This document shows positions 26,320 through 59,896 of a stretch of 64,000 bases of DNA, one piece after another. Numbering within the stretch: position 1 is the stretch's first letter; each line of letters starts with the position of its first letter. This stretch comes from Microbacterium endophyticum. GTDB lineage: Bacteria; Actinomycetota; Actinomycetes; Actinomycetales; Microbacteriaceae. Both the position numbers and the translations under genes were made by a program. Under the pieces are notes generated by a model. The model was not told the DNA's origin, did no database searches, and saw only the letters and a program-made list of their open reading frames with translations. The DNA is taken from contig NZ_CP049255.1 in assembly GCF_011047135.1 (NCBI RefSeq), positions 558,001-622,000 on the forward strand, read 5' to 3'.

Positions 26320-27998
26320 GATTCCTCCTGGGGGCGGGAAGGGAGTTCGATCGGCTGTGTGAGCCCGAGGTCATCGAAAGACATCGCTTCCTCGCCGGGA
26401 TCTGGTGTGATCGGAGGCGTACCGACAGTGTGATGACCGTGTCTCGGGAGTGTGAGTACGAAGTTCGTTCCGCGGCCCAACTGCGACCAGACCGCGAGAG
26501 TGCCGCCGTGCAAATGGGCATCACCGAGGGCGATAGAAAGACCAAGACCGGTTCCCCCGATCGTGCGTGTACGCGAGGGGTCAGCGCGCCAGAATCTATC
26601 GAACACTCGTTCCACCTCGTCAGGCGACATCCCGAGCCCGTAGTCACGAACCCCGAGCGCGACGGCATCCTGATTACTGTCGATGGTCAACACAATTGGA
26701 CGACCCTCGCCGTGCTCGATGGCATTCCCGAGCAGGTTACGCACGACGCGGCGCACACGTCGCGGATCCATATCGACCGGGGAGTATCCACCCGGCGCGA
26801 CGACTCGGATGTCGCTGCCGTGCTGTTCCGCAAGTTGATGCATAGATTCGACCACGTCTTCAGCGAGGTGCGCCAGAGCGGTGGGTTCCAGCTCGAGCTG
26901 AACGGAGCCAGCGTCGTACCGACTGATCTCCAACAGATCAGTCAAGAGCACTTCGAAGCGCTCCACCTGCGCGTGCATGAGTTCAGCCGCGCGTGAAGTT
27001 GCCGGGTCGAATTCCGAACGGCGATCGTTGAGCATATCGGCGGCCAACCGAATCGTTGTCAGGGGTGTGCGAAGCTCATGCGATACGTCGGACACAAAGC
27101 GCTGCTGCACGAGAGAGAGTTCCGCGAGTTCCTTTATCTGCGACTCGATACTGTCGGCCATCGCGTTGAAGGAACGTCCAAGAGTGGCGAGTTCGTCATC
27201 GCCGTGAACGCCTATGCGTACCTTCAGATCGCCCGCAGCCAGTTTGGCGCTCGTCTGTGCGGCCTCACCGATCGGGATCGTCACTGAGCGCAAGACGAAC
27301 CACGAAATCCCTCCGATCAGAACAACGAGGACCATCCCAACGAGCCAAAGGATGCCCTGAACGAAGCCAAGGGTGTTTTGGGCCGCACTGAAGTCGTAGG
27401 CGAGGTACAGCTCGTACGCACCGACTCCGGGCAGATCGAGCTGTTGGCCGACCACAATCCCGGCAGTCTCGTCACCGTTGCTTTGTAGAACGGGAATTGA
27501 TTGCCACCACTGCAGCTCCGCATTGCTCTGTACGCGCGCCCTCATCTCTGGCGATATGTCGCTATCGAGAAGTCCGCCCGATGTGAACGACTGCGGGGCG
27601 AGAGAGGATGGCGCTGTGTCCGTTCGGAGCACGGCAATCATGCCTGTTCCTGCTTGCCGCGCAAGAATCGTCCGGACGTTGCTCATGACGTTGCTAACCT
27701 TTGCGCTGTCACCCTCGGCCTCGGCTGCATTGAGCGTCGTCTGCGCCGAAAGCGTTGCGCGCTGTGCATCTTCGAGGGCCTGATCACGTCGCGAGGCGAA
27801 GAGGTCGTCTTGAATGGCAAGAGCCATCCAGACGCAGGCGACAAGAATCGCGAACGCGGTCAATACGATAGTGATGACGAGCGTGCGAAACCGGAGTGAT
27901 CGTCGCCACAATCGCGACAAGGTTTCTGGCCAAGTGCGCGCGTCTTGCAGTCCGAACACCCAGCGAGCGCGGGATGTTCCGGCGCGTGGGGTGCTCAT
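26316..27998 (-). CDS. mtrB: Two-component sensor histidine kinase MtrB
   Basis: A 560-residue membrane kinase: TM1 (about 41-62), an extracytoplasmic sensor loop (about 63-210), TM2 (about 213-236), HAMP (about 237-290), HisKA with phospho-acceptor His 307 in FVSDVSHELRTPL, and HATPase_c with GTGLGLSIA near 500. MtrAB controls cell-wall and division genes in Actinobacteria. It is followed by lpqB with a four-base overlap and preceded by mtrA with a 7-base gap; all three form the classical operon. Confidence 0.95.
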   Translation of the reverse strand: MSTPRAGTSRARWVFGLQDARTWPETLSRLWRRSLRFRTLVITIVLTAFAILVACVWMALAIQDDLFASRRDQALEDAQRATLSAQTTLNAAEAEGDSAKVSNVMSNVRTILARQAGTGMIAVLRTDTAPSSLAPQSFTSGGLLDSDISPEMRARVQSNAELQWWQSIPVLQSNGDETAGIVVGQQLDLPGVGAYELYLAYDFSAAQNTLGFVQGILWLVGMVLVVLIGGISWFVLRSVTIPIGEAAQTSAKLAAGDLKVRIGVHGDDELATLGRSFNAMADSIESQIKELAELSLVQQRFVSDVSHELRTPLTTIRLAADMLNDRRSEFDPATSRAAELMHAQVERFEVLLTDLLEISRYDAGSVQLELEPTALAHLAEDVVESMHQLAEQHGSDIRVVAPGGYSPVDMDPRRVRRVVRNLLGNAIEHGEGRPIVLTIDSNQDAVALGVRDYGLGMSPDEVERVFDRFWRADPSRTRTIGGTGLGLSIALGDAHLHGGTLAVWSQLGRGTNFVLTLPRHGHHTVGTPPITPDPGEEAMSFDDLGLTQPIELPSRPQEES

Positions 27999-28005
27999 TT
28001 CATGC

Positions 28006-28686
28006 TCACACCACGGCGCCAGCGCGGTAGCCCACGCCGCGGACCGTCGTCACGATCTTGGGATTATCGGGGTCGAGCTCCACCTTTGCGCGCAAACGCT
28101 GAACGTGCACATTCACAAGCCTCGTGTCGGCCTTGTAGTGATATCCCCACACTTGTTCAAGCAGCATCTCTCGGGAAAATACCTGCTGAGGCTTCAGCGC
28201 AAGCGCAACGAGAAGCTCGAACTCCAAGGGGGTGAGAGCGATTGACTCTGTTCCCCGGCGCACTTCATGAGCGGCGACATCAACTGTCACGTCACCGATG
28301 CGAAGTGTCTCCGCGGGTTCTTCCGACGCGGGGCGAAGCCGCGTACGAATCCGCGCGACGAGCTCTTTCGGGTTGAACGGCTTGACGATGTAGTCATCGG
28401 CACCGGACTCAAGTCCTTTGACGACATCGGCGGTGTCGGTGCGCGCGGTGAGCATGATGATGGGGACACCTGACTCAGCCCGGATCTCGGTACATATTTC
28501 TATGCCGTCCATACCCGGGAGCATGAGATCGAGAAGGATGAGGTCGGGTCGTTCCTCCCGCCAGATGTCCAGTGCTTTTGCTCCGTCTGCGCAGAAGGCA
28601 GTTTCGAAGCCTTCGGTTCGCAGCACAATGCCGATCATCTCGGCCAGCGCGGTGTCGTCGTCGACGACGAGGATGCGTGAGGTCAT
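28006..28686 (-). CDS. mtrA: Two-component response regulator MtrA
   Basis: A 226-residue OmpR/PhoB-type regulator: a receiver domain with phospho-acceptor Asp 53 (LDLMLPGMD) and a C-terminal winged helix (RRGTESIALTPLEFELL, ADTRLVNVHVQRLRAKVE). MtrA is an essential regulator of cell-wall metabolism, division and, in some genera, DnaA and osmoprotection genes. ATG 28686 is the conserved N-terminus (MTSRILVVDDD). The 164-base spacer to the divergent DUF7847-like operon must hold both promoters; I could not define them with confidence. Confidence 0.96.
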   Translation of the reverse strand: MTSRILVVDDDTALAEMIGIVLRTEGFETAFCADGAKALDIWREERPDLILLDLMLPGMDGIEICTEIRAESGVPIIMLTARTDTADVVKGLESGADDYIVKPFNPKELVARIRTRLRPASEEPAETLRIGDVTVDVAAHEVRRGTESIALTPLEFELLVALALKPQQVFSREMLLEQVWGYHYKADTRLVNVHVQRLRAKVELDPDNPKIVTTVRGVGYRAGAVV

Positions 28687-45710: not shown

Positions 45711-47126
45711 ATGGCCGTACACACGAAGCATCCGATTGCAGCGCCCCCCGCTGCGCCTCCCAGGGAGAAGACGCGGCATCTGATGCTGCGCGCCTGGTGC
45801 GTCTTCGTGCTCTTCCAAGCATTCGCAGGAGTTGCCTGGGTCAACGCCTTCGGCGACTTCATCGCCGGAAGCATCGCTGCGGTATCCGCCATCATTTCAG
45901 CGGTGCTGTGGGTCAGCATCCGACCACCCCTGAACTGGCGGCGACTGCCCTGGTTCCCTCTCGGTTACGTTGCATGGGCGTTGACCTCGGTCTTCTGGTC
46001 TTCGTGGCTGTCTACGACAGCGCTGACATGGACGCTTCTTGCGTGCACAACGCTGCAAGGCCTCATGGTCGCGAGCATGCTGGGCTGGAAAGAACTTATC
46101 CGGGCGATGGCTGCTGCACTGAAGTGGGTCATCTCACTGTCGCTCCTGTTCGAGCTTGCAGTATCCGTCTTCATCAACGGGCCAGTATTACCCGGGTTCG
46201 TGATTCCAACGACGAAGTTGGACCCGATCGTCTACTGGTCCCGAAATAATCTGTTCGATGGCGGCCGCATCCAGGGCATCTTCGGCAACGCGAATCTGCT
46301 CGCGAGCGTCGCACTCACGGCCATGATTGTCTTCGCGCTGCTGTTCGCCGCGCACACGACTCGCCGTGTTCCGCTCGCGCTCTGGTTTTCCGCAGCAACC
46401 TACGCGTTCGTTCGCGCCGATTCCGCCACCGCGTACCTTTCGGCCATCGCTGTCGCTGTCGTGCTCACGACGTCTCTCCTCATGCGCACTGCGCGGCGTC
46501 CGGGGTCTCGCACAAAGTACTACGCTGCATTCGCCGGACTCGGAGCGCTGGGGATCGCTGCGGTATGGGTGTGGCGAGACGCGATCTTCACGGCGCTGGG
46601 GCGGTCATCCACTCTTACCGGGCGCGAGACCATCTGGCAGGCCGTTCTCGACCGTGCCGTCGAGCATCCCGTCGTCGGCTGGGGCTTCGCGACACCGTGG
46701 TTAGACTCGGACCCCGCTTTCGATGGCTGGATCATTGACCACGGGCAGAGCGTGATGCAAGCGCACAACATGTGGATCGACGTCTTTTTGCAGCTCGGAG
46801 CCGTCGGCCTCTTCATCATGGTCGGTATCTACTTCTCGGTCATCTGGCGGGCGTGGTTCTTCGCGGTCGACCGACCAAGATGGGACCTTGTGGACAGTCG
46901 TCCGTTCTCCCCCCTCACTCTCCTGCCGATCCTCCTCATGAGCATGCTTCTCGTGCAGGGTCTCGCTGAGTCCGGGCCCCTTTTGCTGTGGGGATGGTTG
47001 AGTGTCGTCATGCTCGGGTTCAAGATCAAGCAAGCGCCCCTGATCGGCGTCGGCCCAACCGGACAGACACTCGCGATGGAACGTGGCGATGGACTTGCCA
47101 CCCTCGCGAAGACTCAGCACACGTGA
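45711..47126 (+). CDS. O-antigen ligase/polymerase-like membrane protein (Wzy_C), copy 1
   Basis: A 471-residue protein with about 11 transmembrane helices and a Wzy_C/O-antigen ligase region: GRETIWQAVLDRAVEHPVVGWGFATPWL (about 305-332) followed by the His-containing QAHNMWIDVFLQLGAVGL (about 345-362), as in WaaL/Wzy-type enzymes that transfer or polymerise lipid-linked glycans on the outer face. It is the first gene of a coupled pair with a paralogue (TGATG overlap). In this Gram-positive a role in ligating or polymerising envelope glycans, possibly onto the wall, is inferred. Confidence 0.85.
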   Translation: MAVHTKHPIAAPPAAPPREKTRHLMLRAWCVFVLFQAFAGVAWVNAFGDFIAGSIAAVSAIISAVLWVSIRPPLNWRRLPWFPLGYVAWALTSVFWSSWLSTTALTWTLLACTTLQGLMVASMLGWKELIRAMAAALKWVISLSLLFELAVSVFINGPVLPGFVIPTTKLDPIVYWSRNNLFDGGRIQGIFGNANLLASVALTAMIVFALLFAAHTTRRVPLALWFSAATYAFVRADSATAYLSAIAVAVVLTTSLLMRTARRPGSRTKYYAAFAGLGALGIAAVWVWRDAIFTALGRSSTLTGRETIWQAVLDRAVEHPVVGWGFATPWLDSDPAFDGWIIDHGQSVMQAHNMWIDVFLQLGAVGLFIMVGIYFSVIWRAWFFAVDRPRWDLVDSRPFSPLTLLPILLMSMLLVQGLAESGPLLLWGWLSVVMLGFKIKQAPLIGVGPTGQTLAMERGDGLATLAKTQHT

Positions 47127-48448
47127 TGAGCGGATTCGGTGGAACGCCTGCATCGCTGCGGTTCGGCAGAGAGTTCTTTCGGTCAGCGGCGATCGCCCGA
47201 GCTTTCACGCTGACGACTCTCGGCACCGCGTTCGGCATGTTTGCCATCGAGCATGTCGCTGGTCGCATCTGCCTCATCACGATCATCGTCGGACTTTGTT
47301 TGCTTGGCGCAGCAATACTTTGGGCGCGAAGCGACGATCTCGAACTACCGCGCCTTGTGCCGCTGTCAGTGCTTGCCTTCGTCGTTTGGGCACTCGCCAG
47401 CACGATTTGGACCCATGACACCACAGAGACGATCGTCGGCTGGCTCGCATTAGCGGCGCTGGCATTCTTGGGAATTGTCGCGGCTCACGTGCGCGACACT
47501 CTCCAGATGGTTCGCGCCCTCGGTGATGTACTGCGACTACTGCTCGCGATATCGCTCGGCATCGAAATACTCTCCGGCATTCTCCTCGATACGCCGATAG
47601 CGTTCCTCGGTGTCGAAGCCAACATCGCCGCCGGTGGACCCATTCAGGGACTCTTCGGTACTCGCAACGCGCTTGGCTTCGTTGCCGTCATCGCCTTAAT
47701 CGCGTTCATGATCGAGTGGCGAACATCATCGGTTCGATCCGGAGTCGCGATCGGCTCCGTTGTTCTGGCTGGTGTGCTCGCTGTACTTTCCGATTCACCC
47801 ACCGTCGTCGTTCTCGGCGTTGCTGTCGGTGCCGCGGCGCTCATACTCATGCTGGTGCGCCATACCGCCAGCGAGAATCGAAACGTACTGCAATGGACGC
47901 TCGGCGCAATCGTCGCAGTAGGGCTCGCCGTTACATACGCGCTGCGACATCAAATTATCGCGTTCCTCGGCGCGGGCAGCGACTTCTCGACCCGGGTCGA
48001 TCTATGGAACACCATCGAGCAGTTCGTGCGCATTTACCCCGTCCAAGGGTGGGGGTGGATGGGACCGTGGCTGCGCAACCAAGCACCGTTCAACGCGATC
48101 AACTACGTCGAACAAGACCACCACGCCAGCGCGCTCAACGCCTTCGTCGATGTGGTCCTACAGTTGGGCTGGGTGGGACTCGCGCTATTCGTCTTGTTGG
48201 CGGGGATCGCTCTGGTGCGTTCTTGGCTCGTCGCAAGCGTTCGTCGCTCGGTCGTCTACGCCTGGACACCGCTCGTCGTTATTGCCCTAACCGTAGATTC
48301 GCTCTTTGAGAGCTTCACTCTTTCGGGCTTTGGTTGGCTGCTGCTCGTCATCTGTGCCGTGCGGGCCGGGCAGTCGCGGTCATGGCGCCAACACATCAAC
48401 GACGAGCCAGGAAGCTCAGACCTTCCCGCAGCTCACGCGGCGGAATAG
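47126..48448 (+). CDS. O-antigen ligase/polymerase-like membrane protein (Wzy_C), copy 2
   Basis: A 440-residue paralogue of the preceding gene, with about 11 transmembrane helices and the matching motif RVDLWNTIEQFVRIYPVQGWGW (about 290-311) and HHASALNAFVDVVLQLGWVGL (about 332-352). The start ATG 47126 overlaps the upstream stop; GTG 47123 in the same frame is an alternative. Its last 16 bases overlap the convergent ABC ATPase gene. Two adjacent, divergent-in-sequence copies suggest different acceptors or a polymerase/ligase split. Confidence 0.85.
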   Translation: MSGFGGTPASLRFGREFFRSAAIARAFTLTTLGTAFGMFAIEHVAGRICLITIIVGLCLLGAAILWARSDDLELPRLVPLSVLAFVVWALASTIWTHDTTETIVGWLALAALAFLGIVAAHVRDTLQMVRALGDVLRLLLAISLGIEILSGILLDTPIAFLGVEANIAAGGPIQGLFGTRNALGFVAVIALIAFMIEWRTSSVRSGVAIGSVVLAGVLAVLSDSPTVVVLGVAVGAAALILMLVRHTASENRNVLQWTLGAIVAVGLAVTYALRHQIIAFLGAGSDFSTRVDLWNTIEQFVRIYPVQGWGWMGPWLRNQAPFNAINYVEQDHHASALNAFVDVVLQLGWVGLALFVLLAGIALVRSWLVASVRRSVVYAWTPLVVIALTVDSLFESFTLSGFGWLLLVICAVRAGQSRSWRQHINDEPGSSDLPAAHAAE

Positions 48449-49179
48449 TCGGCGTTATACCGGTCCAGCACATCGGCGAGCGGAGCATCCATCTCCAACC
48501 GCCCCTTGTCGAAGTAGATTCCTCGCGTGCAAAATCTCCGCAAGTCGCGCTCGTTGTGGCTAACGAAGAACAGCGTCCGCCCCTCGGCCAAAAGCTCGTC
48601 GATGCGTCGGTAGCACTTCTCGCGGAAGGCCTTGTCTCCGACGGCCAGTACTTCGTCGACCAGAAGAATAGGTTGGTCGAGCTGGGATACAACGGCAAAC
48701 GCGAGACGAACCTTCATCCCATTCGAGAGGTGTTTGTAGGGAGTCTCGAGAAAATCCTCGAGCTCAGCGAACGCAATGATGCCGTCGAACCGACGGGCTA
48801 TCTCAGCGCGAGCCATCCCGTGGAGTCCAGCCGTGAGGCGGACGTTCTCGCGAACAGTGAGGTCTCCGACGAACCCCCCGGTGATCTCGATCAACGGTGC
48901 AACGCCGCCGTGCACCCGTACTTCGCCCTCATCGGCGAGAAGCACGCCCGCGACGAGCTTCAATAGCGTTGACTTTCCTTGACCGTTTCGCCCTACGACG
49001 CCGATAGACTCCCCCGGCCTCACCGAAAAAGTCACGTTTCGTAGCGCCCAGAATTCACCCGGCCGTGAGCGCCGCGAGGCACCGGCAAAAAGGTCTTTGA
49101 TACTTCGCCGCCCGCGCTTGTTTCGGCGAAAGCGGATGCCGAGGCCATCTACCTCGATAGCGAGCGAAGCAGTTGACAT
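48433..49179 (-). CDS. wzt: Polysaccharide ABC exporter ATPase (Wzt / Rv3781-like)
   Basis: A 248-residue ABC ATPase: Walker A GRNGQGKSTLLK (about 57-68), signature HLSNGMKVRLAFA (about 148), Walker B ILLVDEVLAVGD (about 168-179) and the H-loop VSHNERDLRRF. It lacks the C-terminal carbohydrate-binding domain of O-antigen Wzt proteins, like M. tuberculosis Rv3781, which with Rv3783 exports lipid-linked galactan. The start is ATG 49179, just overlapping the permease stop (TGATG). It energises export of the glycan made by the adjacent transferases (inferred). Confidence 0.88.
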   Translation of the reverse strand: MSTASLAIEVDGLGIRFRRNKRGRRSIKDLFAGASRRSRPGEFWALRNVTFSVRPGESIGVVGRNGQGKSTLLKLVAGVLLADEGEVRVHGGVAPLIEITGGFVGDLTVRENVRLTAGLHGMARAEIARRFDGIIAFAELEDFLETPYKHLSNGMKVRLAFAVVSQLDQPILLVDEVLAVGDKAFREKCYRRIDELLAEGRTLFFVSHNERDLRRFCTRGIYFDKGRLEMDAPLADVLDRYNADYSAA

Positions 49180-49970
49180 CACAGCTCCTTCAACATGGGG
49201 CGCTCGAGCGACCGGAACGTGTACATCCCGAGCGCCAAAAAGGCAAGACTCATCACCGCACCGACGACGACAGTGAACGTGTTCCATTGATCAGGAAAAA
49301 ACCCCATGCGATACAGCGCGAAGATCCCGGAAAGTGGGTTGAACGCCGCAACCGCAGAAAAGGCGCCGGGGAGATTCGCGACACCGTAGATGATCGGCGA
49401 AGCGTAGAAGAGCGCCCGCAGGATGAGCTTCGTTGTCCGTTCGAGGTCGGACCACAGCACGCACAGCGGCGCGATGAGTAAACCCAGGCCGGTTAAAAGC
49501 ACGAGCTGGAGGATCATCGCGACGGGGAAGAGCAACAGCCCCCAACCGACGGTTGCTCCAGAAAAAACAGCGAACACGACGAGGACGGGCAGCGAGAAAA
49601 GGAATTCGATTCCCTTGCTCAAAACGATGCGATTCACCCAGATAGAGCGCGGAATTGACGTCGAACGCACGAGCCTCGCGTCTTTATTGAATGCCCTTGT
49701 GAAGTCGCTCACAGATGAGTTGAACCATACCCAGGGCAGGAGGGCGGTGATCAGAAAGACGATGTAGGGCTCTTCGCCGACCGTGCGGTGAAATACCTGA
49801 GTGAAGACGAACCAGTAGATACCGGTCATTACCAACGGGTCGAGAACCGACCACAGGTATCCGAGGGCACTGGTGGAATATCGCACGCGAAGATCTCGCG
49901 CGGAGAGTATCCACAATGAGTGCAGATACCGGCGCGAAGATCCGGGGGCGCCGACGGCTGCGGTGGTCAC
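49179..49970 (-). CDS. wzm: Polysaccharide ABC exporter permease (Wzm / Rv3783-like)
   Basis: A 263-residue ABC-2 type permease with six transmembrane helices; SVLDPLVMTGIYWFVFTQVFHR and PWVWFNSSVSDFTRAFNKDARLV are typical of Wzm/TagG proteins. Paired with the ATPase it forms a glycan exporter for lipid-linked polymer. The GTG start at 49970 has TACACT 7 bases upstream, so it is leaderless. It is divergent from the GlfT2-like gene. Confidence 0.88.
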   Translation of the reverse strand: MTTAAVGAPGSSRRYLHSLWILSARDLRVRYSTSALGYLWSVLDPLVMTGIYWFVFTQVFHRTVGEEPYIVFLITALLPWVWFNSSVSDFTRAFNKDARLVRSTSIPRSIWVNRIVLSKGIEFLFSLPVLVVFAVFSGATVGWGLLLFPVAMILQLVLLTGLGLLIAPLCVLWSDLERTTKLILRALFYASPIIYGVANLPGAFSAVAAFNPLSGIFALYRMGFFPDQWNTFTVVVGAVMSLAFLALGMYTFRSLERPMLKEL

Positions 49971-49977
49971 GATTTCG

Positions 49978-49983
49978 AGTGTA
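49978..49983 (-). promoter_or_regulatory. -10 element of leaderless wzm-wzt promoter
   Basis: TACACT on the minus strand, 7 bases before the GTG at 49970. Confidence 0.5.
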
Positions 49984-50040
49984 GATGCCCAAACGCCGTA
50001 AGCGAGCGTTCACACCCAGGGATCAACATGGCGCGCACGG

Positions 50041-50046
50041 TAGGCT
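50041..50046 (+). promoter_or_regulatory. Possible -10 of the glfT2 operon
   Basis: TAGGCT about 52 bases before the GTG at 50099. A -35 is not clear; a GGAG ribosome site at 50089-50092 supports a leadered transcript. Confidence 0.35.
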
Positions 50047-50098
50047 TCTCTCCGGCTCGACGCTCCCGACGCCTGTCTCACACGCAATCGGAGAACCA

Positions 50099-52009
50099 GT
50101 GACACACGTCCTTCAGAATGTTGTCTTCCCGCTCGAGCGGGACCCCGACATCCTTCCGCTGTATGCCGACCCCGAAACGTGGTCGATCATCGACGAGGAA
50201 CCCGTGCGTGTCACCAGCGTTGCTCACCTCGCGAACGTCCTTGACCGCCACAGAGCGCGCATCGCAGCAAGCCGCCGCGTCTCGTTTGCTTCTTACTTCA
50301 ACGCTTTCCCGGCGTCCTACTGGCAGCATTGGACGCCCGTTCGCAACATCTCCCTGACTGTGCGCACCACGGGCACAGCGACAGTTCTCGTCTACCGCTC
50401 CACCGGCGGCGGCATCAAGCAGCGGATCGAGACACGCGAGGTAACCGGGTCTGCCACGACGACCGTCGAGCTTGTGCTCGATCAATACAGCGACGGCGGA
50501 TGGATCTGGTTCGACATCGTGGCCGACCACGAAGACACGATCTTCGAGGGCGCGGAGTGGACGACCGAACAACAGCCCGTACGTGCGGGCAAGGCGTCGC
50601 TCGGAATCACGACCTACAACAAGCCTGGCTATTGCGTTGAAACTCTGGCGAATCTGGCTCAGTCGCCCGAAGCGCTTGACGTTATCGACCGCATCTTCGT
50701 TATTGACCAGGGCACTGAGAACGTTGAAGATCGCCCTGAGTATGCGGGACTCGCTGCAGAGCTCGGCGAGACTCTGCAGGTCATCCGTCAGCCCAACCTC
50801 GGTGGCTCGGGAGGTTTCTCGCGCGCAATGATCGAGACCCTCGATCGCCCCGACAGCGACTTCGTTCAGCTCCTCGATGATGACGTGCGCATCGAACCCG
50901 AATCAATCCGCCGCTCCGTGATCTTCGGCCGGTATTGCACGACGCCCACCATCGTCGGAGCACACATGTTCGACCTACTCGATCGACCGAAGCTCCATGC
51001 ATGGGCCGAAGTGGTCGATGATGTTCCGTTCATGTGGCGAACACTCTTTCAAGAGCGGATGCCGCACGACTTCAGCGAAGCAAACCTTCGGCAGTCTCCG
51101 ATGTTGCACATGCGGCTCGATTCCGATTACAACGGGTGGTGGATGTGCCTCATCCCCGTTTCGGTGTTGCGTGAGATCGGGCTTGCTTTGCCTGCCTTCA
51201 TCAAGTGGGATGACGCCGAGCACTGCCTGCGTGCGCGAGCTGCTGGAGTGCCCACAGTTTCGCTGCCGGGCGTCGCGCTCTGGCACGTCTCCTGGGTCGG
51301 CAAGGACGACAGCATCGACTGGCAGGCGTACTTTCACGCGCGAAACCGCATCGTGGCAGCTCTCCTACACTCCCCCGTTCCTGACGGCGGCACACTGATC
51401 CGCCACAGCCGACGTGTGGATCTCAAGCACCTCATGATGATGCAGTACTACCCGGTAGAGCTGCGTCACCGCGCACTCCGCGACGTCATGTCGGGTCCGC
51501 AGCACATGTGGAAAAATCTCGAAACGGCGATGCCAGGCGCACGCGCCGCTGCCAAGGACTATCCCGAGACCGTGGTCCACAAAGAAGCGGCATCCGTTCT
51601 GCGCTCTCGCCGTGGCCGGCAGGTGTTCAAGCGCCTCAGGCGGCAGCAATTCGACAGCCCAACGGGAATGCAACTTCGCTGGTTTACACTCAGCACGCTT
51701 GTAGCGCACTGGATACACACTCCCCGGCCAGAAAATGTGGCTCAGCCCGAAGTTGAATTCGGCAAGCTCGACGCGCACTGGTGGCGCATACCTCGGTACG
51801 ACAGCGCGCTCGTCAGTACCGCCGACGGGGCGGGGAAGAACATTTACACTCGCGACCGCGCGGCGTACCGACGGATGATCGTTGAGAGTGTTCGTCTGCA
51901 CCGGCGTTTGCGTAAGGAATGGGCGCGCCTCTCGCATGAGTACCGAGATGCATTGCCTGATCTCACCTCGGCCGAGACCTGGCGCTCCAACCTTGGGGTG
52001 AATAAATGA
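50099..52009 (+). CDS. glfT2: Galactofuranosyltransferase GlfT2-like (galactan polymerase)
   Basis: A 636-residue GT2 enzyme, one residue shorter than mycobacterial GlfT2 (637). Beta-sandwich N-terminus (about 1-165), GT-A domain with the metal-binding DDD at 260-262 (QLLDDDVRIEP), WDDAEHCLRA with Asp 371/372 (the catalytic base position in GlfT2), a Trp-His motif WHVSW (His 396, a metal ligand in GlfT2) and the C-terminal helical region that forms the GlfT2 tetramer. GlfT2 extends lipid-linked galactan with alternating beta-1,5 and beta-1,6 galactofuranose from UDP-Galf. Start GTG 50099 (GGAG upstream), not the earlier open frame. Coupled to the next gene. Confidence 0.9.
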   Translation: MTHVLQNVVFPLERDPDILPLYADPETWSIIDEEPVRVTSVAHLANVLDRHRARIAASRRVSFASYFNAFPASYWQHWTPVRNISLTVRTTGTATVLVYRSTGGGIKQRIETREVTGSATTTVELVLDQYSDGGWIWFDIVADHEDTIFEGAEWTTEQQPVRAGKASLGITTYNKPGYCVETLANLAQSPEALDVIDRIFVIDQGTENVEDRPEYAGLAAELGETLQVIRQPNLGGSGGFSRAMIETLDRPDSDFVQLLDDDVRIEPESIRRSVIFGRYCTTPTIVGAHMFDLLDRPKLHAWAEVVDDVPFMWRTLFQERMPHDFSEANLRQSPMLHMRLDSDYNGWWMCLIPVSVLREIGLALPAFIKWDDAEHCLRARAAGVPTVSLPGVALWHVSWVGKDDSIDWQAYFHARNRIVAALLHSPVPDGGTLIRHSRRVDLKHLMMMQYYPVELRHRALRDVMSGPQHMWKNLETAMPGARAAAKDYPETVVHKEAASVLRSRRGRQVFKRLRRQQFDSPTGMQLRWFTLSTLVAHWIHTPRPENVAQPEVEFGKLDAHWWRIPRYDSALVSTADGAGKNIYTRDRAAYRRMIVESVRLHRRLRKEWARLSHEYRDALPDLTSAETWRSNLGVNK

Positions 52010-52971
52010 GCGCTGCTTTCGACCCCGCTACAGCGACGATCGCAATTGTGACGTTCAACCGCTCACACCTGCTCTCGAAGCTGCTCGACAGCATTATTGT
52101 GATGGACCCGAAGCCCGGTCACGTCGTCATTATCGACAATGCATCAACCGATGACACCACTTCACTCGTCGAGTCATACCGCGATCGAATTGGCGCGACG
52201 CTCGTGTACCGGCGACTCGACGAAAACACCGGTGGTTCCGGCGGGTTCAGTGAGGGCATGCGCGTCGCGTACGAGCTGGGATCGACCTGGATGTGGCTCA
52301 TGGATGACGACGTCGAAGTCATTCCCAATGGACTCGCACGAATGGGCGCCTGGGCACCGCGTTTCAAGAGCATCCAGGGCCGTCGTTACGATTACGACGG
52401 AAGCGAGTTCTACTGGCAGTACCGCATCGCCGAGCCTCTCGGCATCCCCATCCCGTTCGCGCCTGCTGGGTTCGACGAGTCGGGCTTCAAACCGATGAAT
52501 TCGGGATGCTTCGAGGGCATGTTCATTCACCGTGACATCGTGCAGCAGATCGGTCTTCCTGATCCGCGTTTCTTCATCTACTGGGATGACCAGGTTTATG
52601 GCTGGCTTGCGTCACGCAAGACGCAATCGGTCATAGTCAACGAGTTTGTGCTCAAACGCACCCGCGAAATCAAACAGTGGGACATGGGCATTCGTCATAT
52701 GAATGCCTCGAGCAACGCTTACAGGTACTACATCATGCGCAATCGCGCGCACATCAAGCAGTACTACCGGTCCGTTGGCATTTACAACCCTGTGCTCTTC
52801 GGTGCAGGTACGGCGCTCACGTTTGCGAAAGAGCTCATCCGCCTGCTGTTCGTCGAACGCACCGTGCGTGGCACGAGTAATCTCATTCGCGGGATTCGCG
52901 ACGGGAGAAAGATTTCCCAGGATGCCAGTTGGCGCCCTATGCCCGCGCTCGATAGAGGAATGATCGAGTGA
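52006..52971 (+). CDS. GT2 glycosyltransferase, GlfT1-like
   Basis: A 321-residue GT-A transferase: IVTFNRSHLLSKLLDSI at the N-terminus, IDNASTDDT (about 44-52), the NTGGSGGF loop and DDDVEV at the metal site (about 102-107), WDDQVYGW (about 189). Length and NTGGSGGF/DDD pattern are close to GlfT1 (Rv3782), which starts the galactan on rhamnose; Rv3782 lies between the ABC genes Rv3781 and Rv3783, the same company as here. It overlaps both neighbours by four bases (ATGA and GTGA). The specificity is inferred. Confidence 0.78.
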   Translation: MSAAFDPATATIAIVTFNRSHLLSKLLDSIIVMDPKPGHVVIIDNASTDDTTSLVESYRDRIGATLVYRRLDENTGGSGGFSEGMRVAYELGSTWMWLMDDDVEVIPNGLARMGAWAPRFKSIQGRRYDYDGSEFYWQYRIAEPLGIPIPFAPAGFDESGFKPMNSGCFEGMFIHRDIVQQIGLPDPRFFIYWDDQVYGWLASRKTQSVIVNEFVLKRTREIKQWDMGIRHMNASSNAYRYYIMRNRAHIKQYYRSVGIYNPVLFGAGTALTFAKELIRLLFVERTVRGTSNLIRGIRDGRKISQDASWRPMPALDRGMIE

Positions 52972-53936
52972 AGCGACTAGCTCTCGTCGCCCACTTCAAC
53001 CCGCTCGGACGCGTCGCACCGCACGTGCTGCGCCAGCTCCAGGACCTTTCGCGAACATTCGATCGAGTCGTTCTCGCCTCCACGAGTACTTTCACGCCGG
53101 AAGATCGCACCGCGATATCTCCGTACGCCGAAATTCTTGAGCGCGCAAACGTTGGCCAAGACTTCGGGTCGTGGCACGAGGCACTCCAGATGACGGACTT
53201 CGCGGCCGACTACGACGAGCTGCTGCTCACGAACGACTCCTACGTGCAGCTAGTCCCCGTCGAGTCGATGATCACCAAAATGCAGTCACAACCGGTGGAA
53301 ATGTGGGGAGCAACACGAACCTGGCGCCGCGGAGAGCATATCCAGTCCTACTTCCTGTATTTCTCAACCGAAGCACTGAAATCTGCGACCTTCACTTCGT
53401 TCTGGGACCTATACCGTCCCGCGGTGGATCGAAAAGCAGCGATCGCGCAACAAGAGCTTGGCATCAGCCTGCAGATGCGTGAAGCGGGATTCCGGCTCGG
53501 CTCCTACTTCGAGCCGACGACCGCCGAAATGAAGCGTGCATCCAGACGCGGAACACACTGGCTGCAGCGTCGACGCCACCGGTATCCGTCAAAGTTCCTC
53601 GACCTCGTCGACAGCGACTTCGATGTATCCCGGCGCCGTGACCCGCGCGAAAGTCGCTTCCTTAACCCGTCGACCGTCTACGCAGACTCCGTCTTCGACA
53701 ACACGAGATTTCCTCTGGTGAAGTTCGACACACTCCGCTACGACCCCTATTGGCTCGACTCGGCCGCGCTGCTCTCGATGTGCGAAGCACGGTTCCCTAA
53801 CGAATTCGATGGGGTGCGCGAATACATCGACGCCACAGCTTCTTTCTACCCTGGGCGACGCTGGGAGAACGACAGCTCAAGCTCACTCTCTGCGCTGCAA
53901 CGCCGGCGAGTGGGCTACACATCGCGGCAGGCATGA
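52968..53936 (+). CDS. RgpF-like (rhamnan synthesis F family) protein
   Basis: A 322-residue protein of the RgpF family (PF05045): AHFNPLGRVAPHVLRQLQDLSRTFDRVVLASTS, then YDELLLTNDSYVQL, FYLYFS and FASFW-type segments, as in streptococcal RgpF, which acts in rhamnan chain or side-chain assembly. Here the acceptor would be the galactofuranan-like chain (inferred). The GTG start at 52968 overlaps the GlfT1-like stop by four bases and its own stop overlaps the next gene. Confidence 0.78.
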   Translation: MKRLALVAHFNPLGRVAPHVLRQLQDLSRTFDRVVLASTSTFTPEDRTAISPYAEILERANVGQDFGSWHEALQMTDFAADYDELLLTNDSYVQLVPVESMITKMQSQPVEMWGATRTWRRGEHIQSYFLYFSTEALKSATFTSFWDLYRPAVDRKAAIAQQELGISLQMREAGFRLGSYFEPTTAEMKRASRRGTHWLQRRRHRYPSKFLDLVDSDFDVSRRRDPRESRFLNPSTVYADSVFDNTRFPLVKFDTLRYDPYWLDSAALLSMCEARFPNEFDGVREYIDATASFYPGRRWENDSSSSLSALQRRRVGYTSRQA

Positions 53937-56900
53937 TGAAAGAGAACAAGGACACCCAGATGAACCGACTGCGTGAGATGAGTCGCCACCTTCGCCGTCT
54001 TCCCGTCGTGCGACATGCTCTGGAAAAAAGCGATCCACGTCGACGGATCGCGCGAATCATCGCAGCAGGGATCGTTGACCCCGTGCTCTACGCGGCTCAG
54101 CTCGGCGTCGATGAAATGAGCACGGCAGAAGCCGCCAAGCATTACATTCGCTGGGGCTATCGGCACGGCTACGCCGTCAATATTCTGATCGACAACTTCG
54201 TCCTCAAGCAGAATATGCCTGGCACTCCCCGTCCTCTCGCGTATGACTACATCGCAAGCGCGGAGTGGAACACGCCGGTGAGTCCCGTTTGGGATCCCGC
54301 GTCTTATCTGGCAGAGCACCCAGAAGCAAGACAACATCCCGGCGGCCCCGTGGGGCACTTGTGGGGGCGCGTTCAAAGCGACCCGCAGAACGTGAAGATA
54401 CCCATTCAGGATGCTTCGGGTGTGCGAACTGTCGCGTGGACAGATCTTTACCAGGATGCACTGCAGGCGATTTCAGCGTGGTCGGCCGCGCGAGCGGACC
54501 GCCGCCGCCGCCGCCCAAATTCATGGATGAAGAAACCGACTGAAGCACTGCCAGTCTGGGACAGTGCAAAAACGCAGCCCCTGGTATCCATCGTCATGCC
54601 GGCATGGAATAGATCTGGCGGGGTGAGAGTCGCGGCAGACTCAGTTCTTGCCCAGACATGGACGAACTGGGAACTCTTAATCGTCGACGACGGCTCGTGG
54701 GACGACACCGCGGCTATCGCTCAACTCCTCGCGCATCGAGACCAGCGCATTCGATTCATCCCTCGTGATCACAGCGGCGTGAGCGCGACACGCAACGCAG
54801 GCATTGACGCGGCGCGGGGCGAATACATCGCGTTTCTTGACAGCGACAATGAGTGGCAGCCGCTCTTCCTTGAGACGATGGTGTCGTCAATGGTCGAAGA
54901 AGGCGACACCGTCGCCTTCGCGACGATCGAGCTGGTGTACGAGGATCGCGTTGGCTATCGGCAAAGTGAGCCAACACATGACAGCTTGCTGCTCGGTAAC
55001 TCTGTCGATCTGAATTCGCTCGTGGTGCGCGCTGATGCCCTCACCGCGGCCGGAAACTTTGACACTGCCCTGCCACGCGCAGTCGACTTCGACCTCATTC
55101 TGCGGCTTGCGGAAAAAAACCGAATTCGGCACATTCCGGTACTCGGGGCTATATACGACAATCGCGAAGAATCTGCTGACCGCATTTCCACGACTGAGCC
55201 CATGGGGTGGAACACCTACGTGCGTCTTCGCGCACAAGTCTCCTGGGATGAGCTGCGTGAAAAAGAGCTACTTGCAGGAACTCACGTCATCGCGATCTTG
55301 AATCGGCGCGACGAAAACATCAGTCACAAGTTGAAAGAGCTTCTTCTACTTTCCGAGGATCCGTCATTCAGCGTGCTCGTGGCGTTCATCGCTCCCACCC
55401 GAGAGGAGTGGATGTCGGGGGCGGCAGCACGTCTCGGACGCCCAGACCTCGACACACAGCTTTTTGTCGAGCGCGAGTCCTTTTCGTACGCAGTGAACAT
55501 GTGTCTGACGAAGGTGCGCCGAACTGGAACGCTGGTCCTTGGCCCTCGCGCGCTCTTTGATGCCGATTCCGTCCGGAAGCTGGCCAACGCAGCAGAACCG
55601 ACGTCGCGACGAGTGGTCATACCTACCAACGTCACACCCCAAGGAGTGTTGGTCGGCGTCGGATCGGTGCAGCCCAAGCGCGGCGCGGCGCCCGAGCCGA
55701 TCCTGTCGGGCCACCCCCTTTCTGACGCCAAGGCTTTAGGGACGACCCACAAGATTCCAGCTCTCCACGGCGAGTCTTTCGCTATGCCGACAGCTGATCT
55801 CGTCAAAGTGCAGGGACTTTCGCCACTGCTTTATAACCAGTTCGAGCTGCCTGCCCTTTCGTCGGCGCTGAGTGCAGAGTGGCCTGACTACGAATTCGTC
55901 GTCCGAACTGACGTCGTGTGGCGTCAGTTCGAAAACGGCACCCCTCCGCGCGTTGATCCGATGGGTAACCTCAGAGCGCTAACCACTCTCATGCCCGAGG
56001 CACTGGGTGATGCTGCTGAACTTTATGCGGAGCTCGGCCAAAAACTCGCGCATTGGGAGTATCTCACCGCTGCAGACGGTGAGTCCCGGATGCGGCCTGT
56101 GATCCACCGTGCAATCGCAACCTCGTCGAGTATTCCGCGCCTGCGATGGGCGTTGAAGATCGCCTCGCCCTTCGGGCCGGTGGGCGAAACCTGGGGTGAC
56201 ACACACTTCGCGCGCTCGCTGGCGCGCGCTCTAGAACGCCTAGGACAAGAAGTCGTCATCGATTACCACGATGCACACAGTCGGGAGACCGCGTACATTG
56301 ACGATGTCAGTCTCGTGATCCGAGGTCTCGACGTGCACGTCACTCCCACCGCGGGGATCAATATGCTCTGGGTCATCAGCCACCCCGAGATGGTCACCCG
56401 AGCCGAAGCAAGCAAGTTTGACTTAGTGTTTGCCGCATCGGACTCATGGGCTCGAAGACAATCGAGCCGTTGGGGTCGCACTGTGACACCGCTTCTGCAG
56501 TGCACTGATCCAGAACTATTCCGCCCAACACAGCGGACACGAACGCAAGACATCGTTTTCGTGGGCAACAGCAGACACATCGCTCGCCCGGCAGTGCTCG
56601 AACCACTGCGGGCAGGCATTCCCCTGGTCGTCTACGGCGGCGACTGGGAGCAGTTCATCTCCCCCGACTCGATCGCAGCGACGAGCGTTCCGAACGCGGA
56701 AGTTCCCGCGCTCTACGAATCTGCATCAGTCGTCCTGAACGACCATTGGCGTGATATGCAGCGCGAAGGGTTTATGTCCAACCGCCTATTCGATGTCGTG
56801 GCTGCCTGCGGGCGTGTCCTCAGCGACCGTGTCGACGGGATCGACAAGGTATTCGGAAAAGCAGTGGCGACGTACAACTCACCGGCAGAGCTCGTGTCGA

Positions 56901-57040
56901 TCCTCGAGGGCGATCTGACCGCTGCCTTCCCGACCGAATCTGAAATCGCTGAAACCAGCGAGTACATTCGGCGTGAGCACTCGTTCGACGCGCGTGCTCG
57001 GGTTCTCATCGACGCGGCGATTGCGTGCCGAGATAGTTGA
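53933..57040 (+). CDS. Multi-module glycosyltransferase (repeat - GT2 - GT2-like - CgeB/GT-B)
   Basis: A 1035-residue protein. N-terminal region with two degenerate repeats of the D-P-x-x-Y type (VDPVLYAAQLG..HYIRWGYRHGY about 49-80, WDPASYLAEHPEARQ..GHLWGR about 120-146), which in other glycosyltransferases precede the catalytic domain. Residues 215-425: a GT2 domain with SIVMPAWNR, IVDDGSWDD and FLDSDNEW (DSD 303-305). About 440-690: a second GT2-like fold without a clear DxD. About 740-1035: a GT-B-like CgeB/DUF3880-type domain (GPVGETWGDTHFARSLARALE, IVFVGNSRHIARP, GDWEQFI). It may add more than one sugar. Ends 1 base before the convergent DUF2142 gene. Confidence 0.82.
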   Translation: MMKENKDTQMNRLREMSRHLRRLPVVRHALEKSDPRRRIARIIAAGIVDPVLYAAQLGVDEMSTAEAAKHYIRWGYRHGYAVNILIDNFVLKQNMPGTPRPLAYDYIASAEWNTPVSPVWDPASYLAEHPEARQHPGGPVGHLWGRVQSDPQNVKIPIQDASGVRTVAWTDLYQDALQAISAWSAARADRRRRRPNSWMKKPTEALPVWDSAKTQPLVSIVMPAWNRSGGVRVAADSVLAQTWTNWELLIVDDGSWDDTAAIAQLLAHRDQRIRFIPRDHSGVSATRNAGIDAARGEYIAFLDSDNEWQPLFLETMVSSMVEEGDTVAFATIELVYEDRVGYRQSEPTHDSLLLGNSVDLNSLVVRADALTAAGNFDTALPRAVDFDLILRLAEKNRIRHIPVLGAIYDNREESADRISTTEPMGWNTYVRLRAQVSWDELREKELLAGTHVIAILNRRDENISHKLKELLLLSEDPSFSVLVAFIAPTREEWMSGAAARLGRPDLDTQLFVERESFSYAVNMCLTKVRRTGTLVLGPRALFDADSVRKLANAAEPTSRRVVIPTNVTPQGVLVGVGSVQPKRGAAPEPILSGHPLSDAKALGTTHKIPALHGESFAMPTADLVKVQGLSPLLYNQFELPALSSALSAEWPDYEFVVRTDVVWRQFENGTPPRVDPMGNLRALTTLMPEALGDAAELYAELGQKLAHWEYLTAADGESRMRPVIHRAIATSSSIPRLRWALKIASPFGPVGETWGDTHFARSLARALERLGQEVVIDYHDAHSRETAYIDDVSLVIRGLDVHVTPTAGINMLWVISHPEMVTRAEASKFDLVFAASDSWARRQSSRWGRTVTPLLQCTDPELFRPTQRTRTQDIVFVGNSRHIARPAVLEPLRAGIPLVVYGGDWEQFISPDSIAATSVPNAEVPALYESASVVLNDHWRDMQREGFMSNRLFDVVAACGRVLSDRVDGIDKVFGKAVATYNSPAELVSILEGDLTAAFPTESEIAETSEYIRREHSFDARARVLIDAAIACRDS

Positions 57041-57041
57041 T

Positions 57042-58658
57042 CTACTGAGGTACAACTGGGGCTGGGCCGGATTCTGACAAGACCTTCTCCCGCGCACACA
57101 CCACAACGGCAACCACTGCGATCAAACCAGCAATGGCGTAAACGCAGATCGCAATCGCGAACGCGACGGAAGTAACCGCGCCACTAGCCAGCATGGCGTC
57201 GACTCCAGATTCCGACCACAGCACTCTGTATCCGAAGACCCATCCACCAATACCCGCGCATAGCCCCGCGAACATAATCAATCCCGCCACCGCTGCACGC
57301 AGCCAGGGAGTAACGCGACGGAAAAGAAGGGTCCAACACATGCCAAGGCTTACCGCCAAAGCGGTAAGCCCTCCGTAGAGATATCTCCCTTGAATCCCGC
57401 GAATGGTCCCGTTGTCCCAGAAGATCTCCCAGGCGTGGAAAGTGATGATTCCCATTGTTGCGAGTGGGTACAGCAGGAGAACCGCCAGCGCGAGACGTCT
57501 CCGAGAAAACGCGAGAGCACACACGATACTCAAGATGGCAACAATGCTTGCTGACGTCGTGAGCACGACAGGGAGATCAAGTTCCGCTCGGAAAGAGCCC
57601 CACATTGTCTCGTTTAAGCGCTCCCCGACTCGCAGGAAGAAGCCACTCAGACTGTACGCATCGGATGGCTCTTCTTCGTCGATACCGCTGCCGAAAACAC
57701 TCGGTTGAAGAACACCGTAAACGATCAGGTTTCGGAGCCACCACCAGCCTCCGATAGCGAAGGCCAGAGCCATTGTCACAGCAGCCGGGAGCAATCGCCG
57801 CATCGGACGAGAGTAGGCCCGCCAACCAGCGACGAGGAAACCGATAAATACAAGCGGTATCGCTGCAAGCAGCAAACCTTTGGTAAGCAGCGCCACGCCC
57901 AGCACTGCGCCGCCCACAAGTGAAAGCGCGATAACGCGCTTGGGCTTCGTCATCGCTCGAACCACGATGTACATGAGCGCAGCACCAAGAAAAGTCGCGA
58001 GGGCATCATTGGTAACGAGGGAAAGCACATGGTGATACTGCGGAATCGCGAGAAGAAGCGCGCCCCCGAGTACGCCTGCAGCCCGGGATCTTGTGATCCG
58101 CCGCACGCTGCCCGCGACAAAAGGCACGGCCAATGCAGCCGATGCAGCTGAGACTAGTCGCATTCCCAATAGCAGTTGGTCCCAGCGCCACTCGTTCGCG
58201 CCGAGCGCAGTGAGCGTACCCGCGACAATCGTGTAATAGGCGGGAGGATGCTGGGTCATCCAATCGGTCTGCTCTGGAGAACTCGGCTGGTTCTTGTCGG
58301 AAATAACCGAACGCTCGCTCGCGGAAGGAAGTGGGTCGTCCGCCTCCCCAGAGATCGGGTGCCCTGCCTCCCTCGACGCGACTGCCGTTCCCTCGAGCAT
58401 GGGCGCTGACTTGGGCGCCGGCCAGCCGCCGTCTTGCATCAAGCGCAAAACTGAGTTCATATGGCGCGGTTCATCGACGGTGCTAAACGGAGCGGTAGAT
58501 GTCGCCCAGCCAAAGAGGAGCACAAATGTCGCCACGGTGACCGCGGCGACTCCGGCTGCGTACCATGACGGTCTCGCTAGACGACGAGCCTTCAGCCGTC
58601 GCGCAGCGGCTCTAGAGACAGAATGATCTAGCCGCGTATCAGTCACTGACGATGTCAC
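57042..58658 (-). CDS. DUF2142 family GT-C-like membrane protein, copy 1
   Basis: A 538-residue membrane protein with about 12 transmembrane helices and the DUF2142 signature VDEPRHMNS after TM1 (Asp 62-Glu 63, His 66), plus MTQHPPAYYTIVAGTL and GANEWRWDQLL in the first outer loop. DUF2142 proteins resemble GT-C transferases that use polyprenyl-phosphate sugars on the outer face. It shares its motifs with the other DUF2142 gene at 63269. It overlaps the pyruvyl transferase by four bases (ATGA). The substrate is unknown. Confidence 0.82.
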   Translation of the reverse strand: MTSSVTDTRLDHSVSRAAARRLKARRLARPSWYAAGVAAVTVATFVLLFGWATSTAPFSTVDEPRHMNSVLRLMQDGGWPAPKSAPMLEGTAVASREAGHPISGEADDPLPSASERSVISDKNQPSSPEQTDWMTQHPPAYYTIVAGTLTALGANEWRWDQLLLGMRLVSAASAALAVPFVAGSVRRITRSRAAGVLGGALLLAIPQYHHVLSLVTNDALATFLGAALMYIVVRAMTKPKRVIALSLVGGAVLGVALLTKGLLLAAIPLVFIGFLVAGWRAYSRPMRRLLPAAVTMALAFAIGGWWWLRNLIVYGVLQPSVFGSGIDEEEPSDAYSLSGFFLRVGERLNETMWGSFRAELDLPVVLTTSASIVAILSIVCALAFSRRRLALAVLLLYPLATMGIITFHAWEIFWDNGTIRGIQGRYLYGGLTALAVSLGMCWTLLFRRVTPWLRAAVAGLIMFAGLCAGIGGWVFGYRVLWSESGVDAMLASGAVTSVAFAIAICVYAIAGLIAVVAVVVCAREKVLSESGPAPVVPQ

Positions 58659-59896
58659 GCGCGTGCACCACGGGTTTTTTGAACGATGTCAGAAATTAAG
58701 TCTGCCTGCATGAGCGATCGCGCTTTCACCGACGGCAGACGGGCATCAAGTTTTGCCTTGACCTCCACGCGCTGACTATCTAACTCGGAAAAGCGCTCGG
58801 TGAGGTATTTGAGCGTGAGCTTGTCGTGTCCGAACGCCCAATCCTCGAGTTCAAACATTTCGAGAACTTCGCGATATTTGTGGCTCCAGCCGATAACGAG
58901 TGTGGGAACCGCCATCGCGAGCGAGGAGACCATCGCGTGGAATCGGCTGGCGACGAAAAGCGAGCACTGCCCGATCAAAAATCTCAGCTGCTGCGACGTA
59001 AGCTCACGATCAACAAACAGCAGGTCAGCACCTAGCCGGAGGCGTGAGTGAATATCACGGCACAACGGCAGGTCATTGTTGTGTGTCTTCTCTGTTCCGG
59101 TTCGAACGCTGTGAGGGATCAACATCACGTGCTTTCCCTCGCTTCGAAGGTATTCGATAAAGGCGACCATCTGACTGACGTAGTCGCCGCCCCGCGCGTC
59201 GACCTTTTTTTGTAGCACGACGCTCGGGCACACGCCCACCACATCCTGCTCGAAGAATGTGAGATCGATCTGGCTCGATACATCAGTCGCTTCAGTGCCC
59301 GCGAGCTCGAGAGAGAATGCGTAGTCAGCCCCGGCAACAATATTGCTCAGGCCAAGACCCTCCGCGTACTCATGAGTGATCCTGCCGCGAGTGACGAGGG
59401 TACGCACCTTCGGCAAGAAAGTGCGAGAAGCCCAGCGATTCACAGGATTACGAAACGGTCCGACGGCCTGAGCGCATTTGAAAACGGGGGTTCTTACGTT
59501 GATCGCCGGAAGAATTGAGGCGATGTTGTAGAGCAGAAACTTCTCGCGTCCATCGGTGAAAGTGATTCCGCCTTGATCAAGAAGAACGTCTGCCTCGCTC
59601 AATGCACGAATAGCCTCCGACCGGCTACGCAAGACGCCGCGCAGAAATGGAAGAACCCGGTACGCGAGCGCGAGCGAATTGATCGTCACACCGAGCTGCT
59701 TTGCATTCGCAGCCACGATCTTTAGGTTCGGGTAAGGATTGAGCGCTGCATCCTCTTCGGGATACATGCTCAGCAACGTGAAGCTCGGGTTATCCAGACG
59801 CTCGGAGAGTGTCTGGACGGCGGCTTCGAGCATCGCCGACGCGCCCTTATTCCCCGACAGCGCAGAGCCAATGATGGCGATATTGGGAGAGGTCAT
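58655..59896 (-). CDS. Polysaccharide pyruvyl transferase family protein
   Basis: A 413-residue PF04230 protein: the N-terminus AIIGSALSGNKGASAMLEAA, DVLLDQGGITFTDG near 105-118 and a C-terminal half with VVGVCPSVVLQKK, LIPHSVR and ASRFHAMVSSLAMAVPTLVIGWSHKY (about 320-345), the segment that in CsaB/WcaK-like enzymes binds substrate. It should transfer pyruvate from PEP as a ketal onto a sugar, giving a charged glycan. It overlaps both the flippase-like gene upstream and the DUF2142 gene downstream by four bases. Confidence 0.85.
   Translation of the reverse strand: MTSPNIAIIGSALSGNKGASAMLEAAVQTLSERLDNPSFTLLSMYPEEDAALNPYPNLKIVAANAKQLGVTINSLALAYRVLPFLRGVLRSRSEAIRALSEADVLLDQGGITFTDGREKFLLYNIASILPAINVRTPVFKCAQAVGPFRNPVNRWASRTFLPKVRTLVTRGRITHEYAEGLGLSNIVAGADYAFSLELAGTEATDVSSQIDLTFFEQDVVGVCPSVVLQKKVDARGGDYVSQMVAFIEYLRSEGKHVMLIPHSVRTGTEKTHNNDLPLCRDIHSRLRLGADLLFVDRELTSQQLRFLIGQCSLFVASRFHAMVSSLAMAVPTLVIGWSHKYREVLEMFELEDWAFGHDKLTLKYLTERFSELDSQRVEVKAKLDARLPSVKARSLMQADLISDIVQKTRGARA

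Follow-up and report, generated by a model that had tools for sequence, protein, structure and literature searches.

Does an actinobacterium from a genus outside the mycolata build a galactan with the kind of enzymes that mycobacteria use for arabinogalactan, and does it do so without the arabinan? The question is raised by a glfT2-centered locus in a 64,000-nucleotide stretch of Microbacterium endophyticum (contig NZ_CP049255.1 of assembly GCF_011047135.1, positions 558,001 to 622,000), hereafter the window, whose genome is a single contig of 2.9 Mb (labelled G000) and whose label as non-mycolic is taken from its genus. An initial annotation, made from the letters alone, had proposed that a GlfT2-like protein, a GlfT1-like neighbour and an ABC exporter produce a galactofuranose (Galf) wall chain lacking arabinan. 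This main proposal is well supported by the genome evidence, and we consider it quite probable that the locus makes and exports a beta-linked Galf polymer (galactan) without the mycobacterial arabinan. All open reading frames named in that annotation were recovered in place, and the features that matter here are, in window coordinates:

50099..52009, plus strand: predicted GlfT2-type galactofuranan polymerase, 636 amino acids (Glft2_N, GT-A and GlfT2_domain3)
52006..52971, plus strand: GlfT1-like GT2, 321 amino acids, probable priming galactofuranosyltransferase (NTGGSGGF and DDD motifs)
49179..49970, minus strand: Wzm, ABC-2 polysaccharide export permease (domain and profile matches; relatives in the genus lie near glf)
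48433..49287, minus strand: Wzt, ABC export ATPase (domain and profile matches)
52968..53936, plus strand: RgpF-domain protein, accessory (domain match; four-base overlaps with both neighbours)
53933..57040, plus strand: two-module glycosyltransferase (GT2 and Glyco_trans_1_2), accessory (domain matches)
58655..59896, minus strand: polysaccharide pyruvyltransferase family protein (domain match)

The predicted polymerase resembles GlfT2 (Rv3808c type; Glft2_N/GlfT2_domain3; PDB 4fix, 9dtp) in length, in its three-domain build, in its acidic and His catalytic residues and in having glf as partner; it differs in belonging to a clade of its own, and arabinan enzymes were not found in its genome. 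Its Pfam scores are 110.2 (Glft2_N), 66.2 (GT-A) and 146.7 bits (GlfT2_domain3) against cut-offs of 26.1, 27 and 27. PDB 4fix, which we take to be the Mycobacterium tuberculosis GlfT2, aligns to residues 39-631 (E 2.1e-140) and places the landmarks at 260-262 (DDD), 370-372 (WDD) and W395-H396-V-S-W399. The initial annotation had located DDD and His 396 correctly, its 371-372 denoting the two aspartates of WDD. Throughout 141 grouped homologues DDD, D371, D372, H396 and Glu304 are invariant, while Trp and Lys columns near the catalytic residues differ in a few distant rows. The 636 residues run from a GTG start; the earliest start in the reading frame, an ATG at 49985, would give 674 residues, and most of 120 relatives, among the matches listed, measure 635-637 residues. 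A single GlfT2 copy was detected in the genome, and the closest public protein (P0001) is 96% identical over 99% of the length.

The UDP-galactopyranose mutase gene glf, whose absence the initial annotation had named as a refutation of the proposed chain, is present some 3 kb beyond the window (G000:C1:624937-626073, minus strand), and its product passes TIGR00031 with 328.8 bits (cut-off 303.75). Two proteins of the WecA/TagO/MraY family (PF00953) are encoded in the genome. To judge from the translations of their neighbours, the one adjacent to a MurF-like reading frame is presumably MraY and the other, adjacent to Sua5- and PrmC-like reading frames, is putatively WecA-like, a candidate for the wecA that the initial annotation had listed among its checks. 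An LCP-family protein (L084:7382-8827, some 23-25 kb beyond the window) scores 78.9 bits with LytR_cpsA_psr against a cut-off of 24.6. Searches of G000 for the Emb arabinosyltransferase (PF04602) and for AftA (PF12250) gave no match; in each search Corynebacterium glutamicum alone matched among 14 control genomes. Genes rmlA and rmlB lie near the locus, each over its cut-off. None of the GT2 candidates for WbbL next to these genes reaches the cut-off of a curated model, and an orthologue search with the GT2 beside rmlA returned weak matches in 11 other genomes (best 65 bits), none of them close in three same-genus genomes. At the level of genome content, glf, the PF00953 enzyme, the LCP protein, the Emb and AftA results and the GlfT2 clade described below sustain the proposed wall chain lacking arabinan, its sugars being predicted.

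A survey of 394 genomes drawn from the class detected GlfT2 domain 3 in 92 (91 over the cut-off) and glf in 112: both occur in 91 genomes, GlfT2 without glf in one (G264, a broken, sub-threshold match), glf alone in 21 and neither in 281. Family f11 contributes 35 of the 92 GlfT2-positive genomes, and we infer that it represents the mycolata because Emb and AftA were both found in 12 of 12 f11 genomes tested. Outside f11 carriage is patchy (57/359 genomes). The searches for Emb, GlfT1 and AftA covered 68 of the 92 GlfT2-positive genomes: 12 of the 35 from f11 and every one of the 56 non-f11 genomes over the cut-off, leaving aside 23 from f11 as well as G264, whose match is broken and below that threshold. 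Within these 56, Emb is present in two (G368, G390), an AftA-like match in four (G368, G237, G063, G354) and GlfT1 over its cut-off in four (G368, G390, G313, G158). Two of these, G313 (L134) and G158 (L128), belong to the same taxonomic order; each has GlfT1 over its cut-off near glf-glfT2-wzm-wzt and no match to Emb or AftA, and their galactan equipment would be of the mycobacterial type but lack arabinan. The best matches come in part from named organisms, such as Leucobacter, Naasia, Paenarthrobacter, Sinomonas, Kocuria and Demequina as well as Actinomadura, Thermomonospora, Spirillospora and Actinoallomurus. The separate class of wall galactan suggested in the initial annotation exists, but this locus does not define it: the class is broad, spans many actinobacterial families, and its members already bear the GlfT2 name through automatic annotation. 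Among the same-genus genomes listed GlfT2 occurs in 9 of 12 and glf in 12 of 12. Because G239, G265 and G389 have glf with no GlfT2 domain 3 match, Galf would be put to another use there or the polymerase would be a different one.

Domain 3 scores fall at 131-183 bits for most non-f11 genomes, against 277-306 for the best f11 copy. Four non-f11 genomes score lower (98.9, 97.1, 90.2 and 53.2 bits), G390 is intermediate (248) and the broken G264 reaches 24.4. Several f11 genomes also carry second, weaker GlfT2 copies. The window protein is just 36-40% identical to 30 GlfT2 rows of f11, and some columns are clade-specific, for example position 240, which is Y in 30/30 f11 rows and F in 60/60 genus rows. 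Such divergence could point to a homologue altered in donor or linkage that polymerises a sugar other than Galf. We regard this as improbable, since glf accompanies GlfT2 in 91 of 92 genomes, often as the adjacent gene, and the acidic and His catalytic columns do not vary.

Of 151 extracted rows, 73 entered one tree and 46 another, calculated by a more careful method; L118 and L130, which are long, figure in the 73-row tree alone. In the 46-row tree the f11 proteins group together (100/99) and G390 attaches to them (99/98), while the 36 non-mycolata rows make up a second clade (99/97); both the mycolata and the non-mycolata clade stayed intact throughout 200 bootstrap trees (100%). SH-aLRT values in the 73-row tree are 99 for f11, 95 for f11 with G390 and 96 for the remainder. 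The divergent paralogues L146 (G255) and L151 (G368) fall outside both in a deep paralogue clade and provide the root, which is weak and long-branched. The window enzyme lies in the clade beside that of the mycolata and not among other GT2 proteins, and because of this position we regard it, on the evidence of the tree, as GlfT2 by descent. A recent horizontal gift from mycobacteria, carrying no general meaning, would be in keeping with the patchy carriage outside f11 and with rows L138 and L149, which the 73-row tree places apart from others of their family. The tree does not show such a gift because the non-mycolata GlfT2s form a clade of their own; given the integrity of both clades and a gene order that recurs, we find this explanation hardly credible. 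Two same-genus genomes, G321 and G382 (L121, L123), have a GlfT2 that is not of the genus type and sits on a long separate branch with glf adjacent, as if the resident gene had been replaced by transfer.

The GlfT1-like gene overlaps glfT2 by four bases (52006-52009), as had been noted. Its product shares with GlfT1 (Rv3782 type) the GT-A fold and the NxGG[AS]GG and DDD motifs, and differs in forming its own clade and in having K/R at the His position. With the GlfT1 equivalog model NF050113 it scores 63.4 bits, below the cut-off of 330, and the genome search with this model gave a best match of just 49.8 bits; the likeness claimed earlier thus extends to fold and motifs and stops short of equivalence. 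A structure model from a 31-row alignment reached a pLDDT of 89.4, while a model based on 12 close relatives was too poor for use (pLDDT 51). The protein is 97% identical to one from Microbacterium halimionae (P0121), which places the strain near that species.

The association of these genes recurs beyond the window. In addition to the window, regions were retrieved from 40 of 57 non-f11 genomes, among them G264, and 16 were left out (15 of f34, 1 of f32). Of the 31 non-f11 loci that lie outside the genus, 26 have glf immediately before glfT2 in the same orientation, and 17 show the complete order glf-glfT2-wzm-wzt, exporter homologues having been sought with the window proteins, a search that distant exporters may escape. 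The genus set comprises 60 loci, 55 titled Microbacterium and five with less exact actinobacterial titles (L004, L018, L026, L047, L058). The GlfT1-like gene accompanies glfT2 in 57 of them while most other neighbours vary; glf is found near glfT2 in at least 37, Wzt in at least 32 and Wzm in at least 31, some loci being incomplete. The common arrangement in the genus is glfT2-glfT1L facing wzt-wzm-glf. In the window glfT2 is divergent from wzm/wzt, the exporter lies on the opposite side of glfT2 from this usual layout, as in L053, and glf is about 15 kb from the glfT2 end with other polysaccharide genes intervening.

The window exporter is of the same broad ABC-2 kind as the mycobacterial galactan exporter Wzt/Wzm, and to this extent its comparison with Rv3781/Rv3783 stands. 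By sequence the resemblance is weak: Wzt scores 156.9 bits (NF050108, cut-off 400) and Wzm 53.6 bits (NF050109, cut-off 380), both below threshold, and the ATPase is equally near the teichoic acid exporter (NF010065, 174.7 bits). At loci with the canonical order, four of five Wzm proteins scanned match NF050109 at 39.5-60.1 bits, that of L144 matching a capsule model alone, and the one Wzt scanned gives 167.1 bits against 400. Because a second Wzm/Wzt pair in the genome (L084; 37.2 and 167.7 bits) scores like the window pair, sequence does not tell which of them carries galactan, and it is from its neighbourhood that we tentatively assign the window pair to this role. The true wzt start is probably further inside its reading frame, because the listed start overlaps wzm by 109 bases.

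Four-base overlaps also join the GlfT1-like gene to the RgpF-domain gene and the latter to the two-module glycosyltransferase gene, and the RgpF-like and two-module genes are probably co-transcribed with glfT2. They form a rare accessory cassette, present in 2 of the 60 genus loci in addition to L120 and the window, so the cap that the initial annotation ascribed to these enzymes is not a general feature. The pyruvyltransferase family protein is a possible decorating enzyme. Two Wzy_C (O-antigen ligase-like) membrane proteins follow one another at window positions 45711-48448, between manA and wzt. The end of the polysaccharide supercluster (L083:17108-18981 and L084:1-9339, some 13-25 kb beyond the window) holds rmlA/rmlB, a GT2, the second Wzm/Wzt, the LCP gene and purE, an order that presumably resembles the mycobacterial wbbL-rmlD-lcp1-purE region. 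At window positions 24646-28686 lie genes for an LpqB-like protein, a histidine kinase (MtrB by position) and MtrA (388 bits, NCBIfam cut-off 300).

With its two Wzy_C proteins, pyruvyltransferase, acyltransferase and several glycosyltransferases, the supercluster is capsule-like, and the RgpF and two-module genes form one overlapping series with glfT2. The same enzymes might thus make a galactofuranan or a Galf heteropolymer that forms a capsule or lipid-anchored glycan and is not bound to peptidoglycan. We judge this unlikely, though it deserves real weight: an LCP-family protein is encoded in the same chromosomal region, and at 57 of the 60 genus loci glfT2 keeps the GlfT1-like gene as companion although most neighbours vary.

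We therefore favour a galactan attached to the wall, and from the genes, families, motifs, gene order, co-occurrence and clades observed here we infer every sugar, linkage, step order and wall attachment in the following scheme. Glf would supply UDP-Galf, and a WecA-type enzyme would start the chain as GlcNAc-PP-polyprenol, to which another linker sugar might or might not be added. The first Galf unit or units would then come from the GlfT1-like enzyme, the GlfT2-type enzyme would lengthen the chain, Wzm/Wzt would export it in lipid-linked form and the LCP enzyme would attach it to peptidoglycan. Decoration of the galactan in this strain may be the task of the RgpF-like and two-module enzymes.

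Published wall chemistry offers some points of comparison. The accessible part of an account of bacterial Galf (PMC7278926) names polymers of Bifidobacterium catenulatum and Arthrobacter, and a title among its references describes the former as a galactan from cell walls. The B. catenulatum galactan and the sulfated polysaccharide-peptidoglycan of Arthrobacter sp. appear there as Galf-related wall polymers like the one proposed here; they are known from chemistry, the accessible text links no genes to them, and the Galf of the Arthrobacter polymer is not spelt out in that text. In the accessible part of PMC10978784, galactose is among the wall sugars of 5/5 Microbacterium strains with full entries, arabinose also occurs in 1/5, and galactose is a main wall sugar of that paper's own strain, the ring form of galactose being given in neither case. 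WpsA of Actinoplanes missouriensis, a GT2 placed by its authors in a clade with two galactofuranosyltransferases, belongs to an exopolysaccharide cluster and is likened here by the description available from PMC13390465 alone. We found no paper joining a galactofuranosyltransferase with Microbacterium or Nocardioides, or galactan with Micrococcales and galactofuranose, in a search outside which lay most subscription journals, including the likeliest carbohydrate-chemistry ones.

The presence of galactan genes without arabinan genes, in this and many other actinobacteria, suggests that galactan can be a polymer in its own right, and, over the class as a whole, sets the galactan half apart from the arabinan one. 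This contrasts with a 72-genome survey (PMC6194230), the accessible portion of which restricts arabinogalactan and its pathway genes to lineages after one node. More tentatively, and with some doubt on our part, glf-glfT2-wzm-wzt may be a galactan system that is old and widespread among actinobacteria, and mycobacterial arabinogalactan a later addition of arabinan (Emb, AftA) and mycolate onto a galactan that others keep bare or otherwise decorated; the 2018 one-late-node view would then be valid for the arabinan half only. If the favoured reading is right, the galactan layer anchoring the outer membrane of mycobacteria would have relatives in ordinary laboratory actinobacteria, where it could be studied alone, and the assembly order of the mycobacterial envelope, galactan first and arabinan later, would become testable.
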